Below, in pieces: positions 4,946-25,779 of a DNA stretch of 64,000 bases; position 1 is the stretch's first letter, and every line of letters begins with the position of its first letter. The position numbers and the translations under genes were made by a program. Under the pieces are notes generated by a model, which saw only the letters and a list, made by a program, of their open reading frames with translations, did no database searches and was not told where the DNA came from. Source of the DNA: Deltaproteobacteria bacterium. GTDB lineage: Bacteria > Desulfobacterota > Desulfuromonadia > Geobacterales > Pseudopelobacteraceae. The stretch covers positions 1-64,000 of the forward strand of contig JAJZRX010000004.1 in the NCBI GenBank assembly GCA_021850095.1, read 5' to 3'.

Positions 4946-5000
4946 TTGGGATTCCGCCGGAGTGTTCGGTGCCGCCTGGATAGGACATCAGACAAGCTGT

Positions 5001-5036
5001 TGACATCCTCCCCGCCCTGAAGGACGGGTTTTTACG
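5001..5036 (+). repeat. IS605-end-like hairpin repeat, copy 1
   Basis: This 36-nt sequence (imperfect stem CCCGCCCT/AGGACGGG, then TTTTTACG) matches the copy at 7916-7951 at 34 of 36 positions in the same orientation. Sequences of this form are common at the ends of IS200/IS605-family elements, but no transposase gene lies nearby. It may also terminate the hipBA transcript. Confidence 0.6.
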
Positions 5037-7904: not shown

Positions 7905-7915
7905 TTGAGACGTCT

Positions 7916-7951
7916 TGATATCCTCCCCGCTCTGAAGGACGGGTTTTTACG
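7916..7951 (+). repeat. IS605-end-like hairpin repeat, copy 2
   Basis: Direct repeat of 5001-5036 (two C-to-T differences). It starts 11 bp after the ATPase stop. With copy 1 it brackets a four-gene block of about 2.9 kb. Confidence 0.6.
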
Positions 7952-20691: not shown

Positions 20692-20731
20692 AATTCCACA
20701 ATTTTAGTATCATTTTAGTCAACATACACTT

Positions 20732-21013
20732 CTTATCCAGAGCGACCGAGGGACTGGCCCTATGACGTCGCGGCAACCAGCCCGCCAGGGCAAGGTGCCA
20801 AATCCAGCGGAACTTTTATTCAAATTTCAAATCAAAGATGAAATCAAGGCGGCAAGGATTGAGGCGACGATGGCATACATTGAGTATGTTGAGGAGCCGA
20901 AGACGAGCCAACGAAGAGAGCGCTTTGATTTGGAATTTGAAATGGTTCCGGGAGATAAGGAAGAGCGCCATCCCAAAGATCCTCTTCCGCACCCCGGAAG
21001 GGGATTAATTTTT
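20732..21013 (+). promoter_or_regulatory. SAM-I (S-box) riboswitch with enlarged P4 and a terminator platform
   Basis: SAM-I signatures are present in order: CTTATC (P1 5', 20732-20737), GAGGGACTGGCCC (20749-20761), GGCAACCAGC (from 20772), AAGGTGCCAAATCCAGC (20792-20808) and GATAAG (P1 3', 20954-20959). P4 is greatly extended: CGGAAC (20808-20813) pairs with GTTCCG (20945-20950), and a further stem of about 20 bp joins 20818-20837 to 20923-20942. GGAAGAG (20959-20965) can pair with CTCTTCC (20982-20988) as an antiterminator. The latter region otherwise pairs with GGAAGGGG (20996-21003), giving a terminator ending ATTAATTTTT. SAM binding should therefore stop transcription of the downstream sulfur operon. 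Confidence 0.93.
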
Positions 21014-21025
21014 GGAGGTAACCGT

Positions 21026-22162
21026 ATGAACATCGGCACACAGGCAGTACACATCGGACTTGAATGGGACACACGCACCGGGGCGGTAACGGTTCCGGTT
21101 TATCAGACCGCCACCTTCCGCCATCCGGGACTGGGTCAGAGCACCGGCTACGACTACAGCCGCTCCGGCAACCCCACCCGCCAGGCGCTGGAGGACGGCA
21201 TCGCACGGCTGGACCGGGCCGCGCGCGGCTTCGCCTACTCTTCCGGCATGGCGGCCATCGCCAATCTGCTGCTGCTGTTCAAGTCCGGTGATCATATCAT
21301 CGTGACCGAAGACCTGTACGGCGGCACCTGCCGCCTGTTCGACAAGATTTTCAGCCAATACGGCCTTTCCTTTACGTATGTCGACACCAGCGATACCGCC
21401 GCCGTGCGGGCTGCCATGCTGCCGACCACCAAAGCGGTTTTCGTCGAAACCCTCACCAATCCGCTGCTGAAATTCGCTGACCTGCCGGCCATCGCCGCCA
21501 TCTGCCAGGAGAACCATCTGCTGCTGATCGCCGACAATACCTTTCTGACCCCCTATCTGCTGCGCCCGCTGGAGCAGGGCGCCGATATCGCCGTTTACAG
21601 CGCCACCAAGTATCTGGCCGGGCATAACGACACCGTGGCCGGCCTGGTGACGGTCAAGGATCCGCAACTGGCGGAGCAGGTCTACTTCCACCAGAACTCG
21701 GTCGGCGCGACGCTGGGTCCGCAGGATTCCTGGCTGACGATCCGCGGCATGAAGACCCTCGCGGTACGTCTTGATCGCCAGCAGGAAAACGCCCTGATAA
21801 TAGCGACCTGGCTGGCGGCCCATCCGCGCATAACCAGGGTGCATTTTCCGGGTCTGGCCGATCACCCTCACCACGGCCTGATGAAACAAAACTGCGGCGG
21901 TTTTGGCGCCATGATCGCCTTTGAGGTTGACAATCACGCTCTGGTGGAGCAGGTTCTGCTGAAAACCGGGCTGATCTCGTTCGCCGAAAGCCTGGGGGGA
22001 GTGGAGAGCCTGATCACCTTCCCGGAGGTGCAGACCCACGCCGACATCCCGCCCGAACTGCGCGCCCGGCTCGGCATAAATAATGTTTTACTGCGCCTGT
22101 CGGTCGGGATCGAGGATGTGGACGATCTGATTGAAGATCTGCGGCAGGCACTGGAAGGATAA
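21026..22162 (+). CDS. PLP-dependent trans-sulfuration enzyme (cystathionine gamma-synthase/lyase type)
   Basis: The 378-aa Cys/Met-metabolism PLP enzyme has YDYSRSGNPTRQALE, the cofactor ring-stacking EDLYGGT, and the Schiff-base Lys in YSATKYLAGHND. In this family the same fold makes cystathionine gamma-synthase, gamma-lyase or O-acyl-homoserine sulfhydrylase, and motif reading alone does not separate them. The start ATG 21026 follows GGAGGT directly after the riboswitch terminator; the 88 upstream codons belong to the riboswitch, not to the protein. SAM control shows a role in homocysteine/methionine supply. Confidence 0.85.
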   Translation: MNIGTQAVHIGLEWDTRTGAVTVPVYQTATFRHPGLGQSTGYDYSRSGNPTRQALEDGIARLDRAARGFAYSSGMAAIANLLLLFKSGDHIIVTEDLYGGTCRLFDKIFSQYGLSFTYVDTSDTAAVRAAMLPTTKAVFVETLTNPLLKFADLPAIAAICQENHLLLIADNTFLTPYLLRPLEQGADIAVYSATKYLAGHNDTVAGLVTVKDPQLAEQVYFHQNSVGATLGPQDSWLTIRGMKTLAVRLDRQQENALIIATWLAAHPRITRVHFPGLADHPHHGLMKQNCGGFGAMIAFEVDNHALVEQVLLKTGLISFAESLGGVESLITFPEVQTHADIPPELRARLGINNVLLRLSVGIEDVDDLIEDLRQALEG

Positions 22163-22173
22163 GGGGAATATAC

Positions 22174-23307
22174 ATGAAACTCGCGACAAAACTGATCCAT
22201 GGCGGCCCGACGGTTGACCAGCAGACCGGCGCCCTGGGGGTGCCGATCTACCAGATCTCCACCTACCGTCAGACGTCGGTGGACCATTTCAGCAAATATG
22301 ACTATGCCCGGGGCGACAACCCGACCCGCGAAGCGCTGGAAGACACGATCGCCGTACTGGAGGGGGGCAGCCGCTGTCTGGCCTTCGCCTCCGGCATGGC
22401 CGCCATATCCACAACCCTGATGATTTTTTCCCCCGGCGACCATCTGGTGGTCTGCGACGACGTCTACGGCGGCGCCTACCGGGTCATTTCTACCATCTTC
22501 AGCCGCATGGGCATCAGCTCCAGCTTTGTGGACGCCACCGATCTGAACGCCATTGAAGCCGCCATCCGGCCGGAAACCAAGGGCATCTACCTGGAGACCC
22601 CCTCCAATCCGCTCCTGAAGGTGACCGACCTGCGCGGTGCGGCTGAAATCGCCCGCCGCCACGGCATCATCACCCTGGTGGACAACACCTTCATGACCCC
22701 CTATCTGCAGCGCCCGCTGGAACTGGGCTGCGACATCGTCCTGCACAGCGGCACCAAGTTTCTAAACGGCCACAGCGACGTTCTGTGCGGTTTTGCCGTC
22801 GTCAAGGACAAGGAATTGGGACAGCGCATCCGCTACATCCAGAACGCCTTCGGAACCGGGCTGGGCCCGCAGGATTCATTCCTGACGCTGCGGGGCGTCA
22901 AGACCCTCAAGGTCAGAATGGATCAGAGCCAACGGAACACACTCAAAATTGTCGACTGGCTGAAGGCGCACCAGCGGGTCACCGCCGTGCACTACCCCGG
23001 TCTGCCGGAACATCCCGGATATGCGATCCATGCCGCCCAGGCCGATGGGCCAGGAGCGGTCTTTTCCTTCGAGCTGGACTCCTATGAAACCACCAAACGG
23101 CTCCTGGAAGGTTCCCACCTGGCGGCCTTTGCGGTCAGCCTGGGCGGGGTCGAGAGCATCATCTCCTACCCGGCCAAAATGTCACATGCCTCGGTGCCGA
23201 AGGAAGAACGGGAACGCAAGGGCATCAAGGATACGCTGGTGCGGCTCTCGGTCGGCCTGGAAGACCCGGACGATCTTATTGCCGATCTGCAGCAGGCCAT
23301 GGGCTGA
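22174..23307 (+). CDS. PLP-dependent trans-sulfuration enzyme (cystathionine beta-lyase type)
   Basis: A paralogue of the preceding enzyme (377 aa): YDYARGDNPTREALE, CDDVYGGAYR and the active-site Lys in HSGTKFLNGHSD. Together the two could carry homoserine ester to cystathionine and on to homocysteine, or provide sulfhydrylase activity. Geobacter genomes often hold such adjacent pairs. The gene starts 11 bp after the first, with AAGGGGA upstream. It shares the SAM-I riboswitch transcript. Confidence 0.85.
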   Translation: MKLATKLIHGGPTVDQQTGALGVPIYQISTYRQTSVDHFSKYDYARGDNPTREALEDTIAVLEGGSRCLAFASGMAAISTTLMIFSPGDHLVVCDDVYGGAYRVISTIFSRMGISSSFVDATDLNAIEAAIRPETKGIYLETPSNPLLKVTDLRGAAEIARRHGIITLVDNTFMTPYLQRPLELGCDIVLHSGTKFLNGHSDVLCGFAVVKDKELGQRIRYIQNAFGTGLGPQDSFLTLRGVKTLKVRMDQSQRNTLKIVDWLKAHQRVTAVHYPGLPEHPGYAIHAAQADGPGAVFSFELDSYETTKRLLEGSHLAAFAVSLGGVESIISYPAKMSHASVPKEERERKGIKDTLVRLSVGLEDPDDLIADLQQAMG

Positions 23308-25234: not shown

Positions 25235-25510
25235 TCAGCGATACACCTCATCATGACTGCCAATATCTAGAAGAATGATCTCCTTTTCCGTTACAAGTAA
25301 AGTAAGGGTGATTCTGTAACTGTAGGTGAGACTGACGGCCTGACAACCGGCCAGTTTCCCACCCAGCGGATGCAGCTTCAGAGCGGATTGAAAGGGATCC
25401 AGCCGCAGTTCGGTAACAATTTCTGCAAAGCGGGGTTTCAGGTCAGGGTGTTTCTTGAAGAATTTGCGGGCCTGACGCAGAAACTGCTGTGGAGTGGTTA
25501 CAATGTACAT
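25235..25510 (-). CDS. RelE/YafQ-type mRNA interferase toxin
   Basis: The 91-aa protein has the RelE fold pattern: KFFKKHPDLKPRFAEIVTELRLDPF, KLHPLGGKLAGCQAVSL, YRITLTLLVTEKEIILLDIGSHDEVY, with the C-terminal DIGSHDEVYR typical of the YafQ/RelE group. Such toxins cut mRNA on the ribosome. The start overlaps the antitoxin stop by one base (TGATG), giving coupled translation, with the antitoxin first. Confidence 0.85.
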   Translation of the reverse strand: MYIVTTPQQFLRQARKFFKKHPDLKPRFAEIVTELRLDPFQSALKLHPLGGKLAGCQAVSLTYSYRITLTLLVTEKEIILLDIGSHDEVYR

Positions 25511-25779
25511 CAGTCAACTTCTGCATCAAGCGCTTTAAGCAATTCATCAGCCGAGGCAAACTGCTTGATTCTGCCCGCCTTGACATCCTCCAGCGAGGCC
25601 CGCACCCGCGCCAGATAGGCCTCATTGGCCTCTGACACTAATTCCTGGTAACGCACTTCAGACATTACAACATACTGAGGCTGGTTATTGCGGATGATAT
25701 GCACATCGCCTTTGGCAATGATATCGTCCAGAGCAGCAATACCGCGCCGTTTGATCTCCTGTGCAGGAATGACATTCAT
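25510..25779 (-). CDS. Phd/YefM-type antitoxin
   Basis: An 89-aa protein whose N-terminus (MNVIPAQEIKRRGIAALDDII...GDVHIIRNNQPQYVVMSEVRYQEL) matches the Phd/YefM DNA-binding fold. The C-terminal helix (VRASLEDVKAGRIKQFASADELLKAL) would wrap the toxin. It precedes the RelE-type toxin by a one-base overlap. A perfect 10-bp inverted repeat lies 12 bp upstream of its start, as expected for autorepression. AAAGGAGT precedes the ATG. Confidence 0.85.
   Translation of the reverse strand: MNVIPAQEIKRRGIAALDDIIAKGDVHIIRNNQPQYVVMSEVRYQELVSEANEAYLARVRASLEDVKAGRIKQFASADELLKALDAEVD

Follow-up and report, generated by a model that had tools for sequence, protein, structure and literature searches.

A SAM-I (S-box) riboswitch located upstream of a methionine-pathway gene pair carries a MITE-like transposable element in the apical loop of its P4 arm. 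The riboswitch lies in a 64,000-nucleotide stretch of Geobacterales DNA (hereafter, the window, meaning the whole stretch analyzed). The element very probably folds on itself, leaving the aptamer core and the expression platform undisturbed, and termination at high SAM is most likely kept. Peripheral arms vary widely from one riboswitch family to another, and where they came from can usually not be seen. Here, the source of an arm can be seen directly, through a many-copy MITE family, an empty site, a full-length insertion, and shrunken remnants, and the gain of helices by structured RNAs becomes testable with real before-and-after pairs.

The SAM-I riboswitch and its P4 arm

The aptamer is recognized by the Rfam model RF00162 at positions 20730-20844 (70.8 bits, E 1.5e-14, for a gathering score of 44.4), and the cmscan analysis of the window returned only this SAM riboswitch and one tRNA. 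The covariance model mis-closes P1 and P4 with a false partner within the insert (AAAGATGAAAT), a reason for caution wherever such searches meet riboswitches bearing inserts of this size. Folding places P1 at 20730-20737/20954-20961, and P4 at 20803-20805/20951-20953 together with 20808-20814/20944-20950. The features of the locus are as follows:

20730..20961, + strand: SAM-I (S-box) aptamer, P4 extended by the MITE (RF00162, MFE fold and pair probabilities, ortholog leader alignment)
20742..20771, + strand: P2 arm, with P2a 20742-20746/20767-20771 and P2b 20749-20752/20758-20761 (pair probability 0.98-0.99, whether the insert is present or removed)
20772..20799, + strand: P3 arm (pair probability 0.88-1.00, with or without the insert)
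20803..20953, + strand: P4 arm, ancestral base CGGAAC.../...GTTCCG, insert in the apical loop (folding; relatives show CGAAACCTTGACCGGTTTCG)
20816..20818, + strand: left target-site trimer TTA (family-wide TWA duplication; consensus comparison)
20819..20941, + strand: inserted MITE-like palindromic element, 123 bp, outer stem 20819-20837/20923-20941 (nine copies in its own genome; family consensus, target-site duplications)
20959..20988, + strand: antiterminator, GGAAGAG 20959-20965 (overlapping the P1 3' strand) with CTCTTCC 20982-20988 (sequence inspection; conserved in relatives)
20979..21013, + strand: intrinsic terminator, ATCCTCTTCCG 20979-20989 with CGGAAGGGGAT 20995-21005, then TAATTTTT (folds; conserved in relatives)
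21026..22162, + strand: cystathionine gamma-synthase/lyase family PLP enzyme (MetB/MetC type), first regulated gene (NCBIfam; 84-90% identical in orthologous loci)
22174..23307, + strand: cystathionine beta-lyase type, second gene of the pair (NCBIfam; 91-96% identical in orthologous loci)

The initial annotation had described a normal aptamer core with a giant P4 (20808-20950), containing a stem of about 20 bp with one G-T pair and an internal CATAC/GTATG hairpin, and this description holds. P2 and P3 are of normal size, and the P4 arm measures 143 nt, for a normal length of about 20 nt in the lineage. The long stem (20819-20837/20923-20941) comprises 19 bp, the G-T pair included, and is surmounted by a ladder of short helices that ends in the CATAC/GTATG terminal hairpin. 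The end point set by the annotation, 21013, was also right, since it takes in the expression platform (terminator 20979-21005 and U-tract). The full leader reaches -116.9 kcal/mol, compared to a mean of -85.7 for shuffled sequences (z -6.0), none of the 100 shuffles being equally stable. All four helices of the P1-P4 four-way junction, with P1 closed, are present in the MFE fold, with pair probabilities of 0.76 for P1, 0.98-0.99 for P2, 0.88-1.00 for P3, and 0.85-0.99 for P4.

One claim had to be corrected from the SAM-I structure, namely that P4 helps form the SAM pocket. The ligand lies between P1, P3, and the joining strands, P4 taking no part in holding it, which makes a long distal P4 a smaller cause for concern than was supposed.

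The antiterminator and terminator pairings are alternatives, and a Shine-Dalgarno sequence lies 3' of TAATTTTT, ahead of the start codon of the first regulated gene at 21026, which constitutes a classical S-box platform. Both pairings are conserved in relatives, and methionine-pathway genes lie downstream, as befits a SAM-I expression platform. The metB/metC-type pair is followed by thiF and mnmA genes. In PMC2700814, SAM-riboswitch control is described for the same gene pair (metC-1-metC-2) of Geobacter metallireducens and G. sulfurreducens.

A reading frame without stops (20762-22162) also starts at an ATG of the aptamer, crosses the element, and continues into MetB. In that frame, a TAG is present in most copies of the element (GAAGATAGCG), and relatives are devoid of the insert; this frame was, thus, rejected as a gene and is probably due to chance.

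The inserted element and its family

With the P4 arm as a query, nine copies of the element were found in its own genome, the other eight being 77-87% identical (E ~1e-12 to 1e-33), and copies occur in 30 of the 39 related genomes searched; matches extend to 37 of the 39 same-genus genomes with a query that also contained the riboswitch. This search had been suggested by the initial annotation, which proposed that a mobile hairpin had entered the aptamer at a tolerant place, a proposal supported by the dispersed copies, the TWA duplication found across the family, and the empty sites of orthologs. In one canonical orientation, the copies share the ends TTCCRATTYCARATCAAAG ... CTTTGATWTGGAATTGGAA, with TTCCRATTYCARATCAAAG as terminal inverted repeats at both ends, and the element has TTCCRATTYCARATC termini and TWA duplications. 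Among 159 flanked copies, 89 have TTA or TAA on both sides (47 TTA/TTA, 41 TAA/TAA, and one mixed). The trimers are therefore identical left and right in 88 of these 89; a target duplication of 3 bp is thereby shown, and such duplications are the signature of transposition. The element is palindromic over its entire length and has no coding capacity of note. Base pairing covaries within the family, with 215 doubly compensated cells for 89 expected if the two sides were independent, although relatedness inflates such counts. Given its dispersed copies, target duplication, full-length palindrome, and lack of coding capacity, the element answers to the definition of a MITE.

No pair of ends at the length of an insertion sequence, as expected for an autonomous partner, was found among the matches listed for four genomes with one terminal-repeat pattern. 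When about 100 copy loci were scanned, no Rfam family was detected in the element outside known riboswitches; the few loci overlapping an Rfam RNA were always cases of the element inside a known riboswitch. In one genome (G039), several copies (C98, C161, C166, C109, and C55) are interrupted by some 80 nt of additional sequence, always at one and the same internal point, which would fit the existence of a longer subfamily.

Against the family consensus, the window copy has an identity of 94.4%, where the copies of the family average 89.3%. All 22 pairs of its outer stem are formed, which ranks it first of the 159 copies, and this stem includes a double change from C-G to A-T. Since consensus identity is this high and every outer pair is intact, the copy is presumably young or maintained as a helix. 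Its right target trimer (20942-20944) reads ATG instead of TTA, having decayed or lost about 2 nt, and this insertion, taken by itself, is therefore without a perfect target duplication. Although the genome is a draft of 118 contigs, misassembly is unlikely because identity between the window copy and the other copies of the genome is no higher than 77-87%.

The orthologous leaders provide the empty sites. All 13 same-genus leaders preceding a MetB that is 84-90% identical have a P4 of about 20 nt, with CGAAACCTTGACCGGTTTCG or a similar sequence in identical surroundings, and 18 orthologous leaders from named Geobacterales contigs, a set partly overlapping the 13, agree; for these further Geobacterales, the statement covers orthologs with a recognizable aptamer. 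Among the leaders compared, an element between CGGAAC and GTTCCG is found only in the window. A long P4 shared as a normal trait of the lineage had been named in the initial annotation as a finding that would count against its idea, and an old trait of this kind would have arisen without mobile DNA. SAM-I and other riboswitches are known to tolerate variable insertions (PMC2258182). Nevertheless, practically no credence can be given to this reading: none of the orthologs compared has a long P4, copies of the insert exist at other sites, and the empty sites refute it.

The element in other riboswitches

The survey of 39 genomes of the genus covered 61 SAM-I and about 105 cobalamin riboswitch hits, and the full element was found in three aptamers of each class. 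Two of the cobalamin cases belong to a single genome (G002), where copies are located in L4 of riboswitches of 303 and 304 nt (98.7 and 93.2 bits). These two loci are 83% identical over 614 bp, and are thus probably the outcome of one insertion followed by duplication. In five other species, L4 measures 87, 54, 38, 38, and 36 nt, and the match of each of these remnants to the ends of the element exceeds that of every one of 1000 shuffles, whereas the ordinary 19-20-nt loops of relatives do not. Related bacteria, thus, display for one cobalamin riboswitch arm a size series of 130, 87, 54, 38, and 36 nt. The aptamer-core tree, otherwise too weak to distinguish single from multiple L4 insertions, supports a clade of three genomes (G007, G023, and G052) at 0.95; in that clade at least, the arm was therefore present once and shrank by internal deletion, with the terminal stem kept. 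The third cobalamin copy (G039) occupies a different internal loop (68.7 bits). A 19-nt internal-loop sequence in another genome (G043) was tried as a remnant of that insertion and rejected, 646 of 1000 shuffles being equally good.

The P3 loop of the metX SAM-I riboswitch holds a copy in two genomes (G052 and G039; 222 and 224 nt), and the same site is empty in a third (G041), with flanks matching at 98% and 95%. A second genus carries a P3 insert of about 110-130 nt in its metX SAM-I riboswitch in the four genomes searched (4/4). Compared to the element, this insert scores 21.0, 15.5, and 9.6 bits in three of them, for a maximum of 6.7 in 1000 shuffles, and no relationship to the element was detected for the P3 insert of the fourth. 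By sequence similarity, the insert is a divergent relative of the element. It is single-copy and its stem is largely kept, with one of 47 pairs doubly compensated.

Several further observations concern the surroundings of such riboswitches. Two metX SAM-I riboswitches (L075 in G009 and L074 in G003) have a P3 that is 20-30 nt longer than usual, which may be the worn remnant of an older insertion. Two tandem cobalamin riboswitches, the first of which carries the element, precede a cbiM-like start (L052 in G002:C6, and L252), with a terminator-like hairpin between them. At another locus (L057 in G006; 1501-1627 and 1723-1909), the element lies about 100 nt from a cobalamin riboswitch, outside the aptamer, and a terminator-like hairpin separates the two. 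Finally, a degraded copy of the element has two c-di-GMP-I riboswitches, less than 500 nt apart, within a few hundred bases of it (L060).

A rough expectation, which assumes a non-coding fraction of 12% and is subject to found-case bias, is about 0.6 riboswitch insertions, versus three or four independent events. Ordinary insertion at TWA sites seems to have left the riboswitch cases as survivors, the element doing little harm as it folds on itself in a loop. On the preferred reading, new riboswitch arms are seeded by MITEs that aptamer loops tolerate, and these arms later shrink. A broader proposal, that MITE insertion is a general route by which aptamers acquire peripheral helices (landing in apical loops, tolerance through self-folding, pruning by internal deletions to a short stable arm, and selection of some arms that help folding), is tentative, and we give it somewhat less than an even chance.

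Switch function, competing readings, and known systems

The sequence of events very probably started with a non-autonomous palindromic MITE (~123 bp, with a 3-bp TWA duplication) landing in the apical loop of the SAM-I P4. As the element is a near-perfect inverted repeat, its transcript would fold as an autonomous hairpin prolonging P4, and the four-way junction, the SAM pocket, and the downstream antiterminator and terminator would be left unchanged. High SAM would then most likely still lead to transcription termination. The insertion being 5' of the P1 closing strand, the interval between aptamer completion and the terminator should also be unaltered. In the computed ensembles, taking out the insert alters none of the first three decimals of the pair probabilities of P1, P2, and P3, and the probability of the outermost P4 stem goes from 0.989 without it to 0.986 with it; by computation, the insert thus behaves as an independent domain. 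With unchanged core helix probabilities and an intact terminator and antiterminator, the switch probably still works, SAM binding and regulation being retained.

A different outcome would be a broken riboswitch, regulation being lost and the leader left constitutively on, or off through premature termination or RNase III cleavage. Inserting into a conserved RNA is a priori risky, and RNase III can target the hairpins of MITEs that are transcribed, a point reviewed for Correia elements (PMC10969869). This outcome is, however, unlikely, as no damage is seen in the aptamer core, P1, the antiterminator, or the terminator, all of them conserved, and the insert, having no U-tract at its end, is not itself an intrinsic terminator. 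Riboswitches bearing the element also persist, in the paralogues of G002, in metX of G052 and G039, and in four species of the second genus. The long arm could also be a functional add-on under selection, either the second sensor evoked in the initial annotation or an arm binding a protein or RNase. The perfectly paired outer stem of the window copy, with its compensatory change, and the P3 arm length kept across the four species of the second genus would fit this view. Nevertheless, it is distinctly improbable: compensated pairs are a property of the whole family and nothing special to the window copy, the same sequence sits at many unrelated sites, the cobalamin arms shrink to 36-54 nt, which goes against a conserved content, and the second-genus arm shows hardly any double compensation. 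The sensor hypothesis, in particular, finds no support in these unrelated locations or in the Rfam result on the copy loci.

It might also be argued that the element actively targets hairpin loops or inverted repeats, most of its riboswitch insertions being in apical loops. This is very improbable, since the site rule is simply TWA, and randomly re-paired controls show as much self-complementarity as the true flanks of the 159 copies (for true flanks versus controls, mean pairing score 3.06 versus 3.04, fold energy -5.70 versus -5.91); hairpin-targeted insertion was, thus, rejected for the family. An ordinary insertion with a retained switch remains the preferred reading.

SAM-I riboswitches, MITEs, the tolerance of variable insertions, and a BOX element between T-boxes (PMC3049150) were already known. 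In the searchable literature, outside which most subscription papers lie, there was no report of a MITE within a riboswitch aptamer arm, still less of stages by which a MITE erodes into a short arm. The SAM-I riboswitches of G. metallireducens and G. sulfurreducens (PMC2700814) have the same aptamer core, kind of gene pair, and terminator platform; compared to these Geobacter riboswitches (metC-1-metC-2, metX), the P4 described here carries a transposable element where about 20 nt is normal in the lineage. The variable insertions of Barrick and Breaker 2007 (PMC2258182), a paper in which the word 'transposon' is absent, differ in that, here, a mobile-element origin is identified, with empty sites and partly eroded intermediates. 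In the pneumococcal trp operon, BOX, a MITE-type repeat, is co-transcribed with riboswitches that apparently still regulate, but it lies between two T-box riboswitches, and not inside an aptamer arm (PMC3049150).

Within Geobacter, the palindromic 'multicopy nucleotide sequences' are likewise dispersed intergenic palindromes, and one of these families may be the element described here; the passages dealing with them make no mention of insertion into riboswitch aptamers (PMC2700814, PMC2996986). The Chunjie MITE of Geobacter uraniireducens, which occurs in a related family, can likewise be part of a transcribed unit, and differs in its size (235 bp, versus ~123 bp here) (PMC10969869). ERIC sequences (PMC10969869) resemble the element as full-length imperfect palindromes, dispersed mostly in non-coding DNA and without coding capacity; the element differs by its sequence, its 3-bp TWA duplication, and its Geobacterales distribution.

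In size, too, the element is like ERIC, which measures about 125 bp.

Two other features of the window may be mentioned. Two hairpin-forming 37-mers (TCCTCCCCGCCCTGAAGGACGGGTTTTT), 95% identical, are found at 5000-5036 and 7915-7951, and resemble the right end of IS200/IS605-type elements. On the minus strand, two short overlapping open reading frames (25235-25779) have the appearance of a toxin-antitoxin pair, the toxin of RelE/ParE type and the antitoxin of Phd/YefM type.
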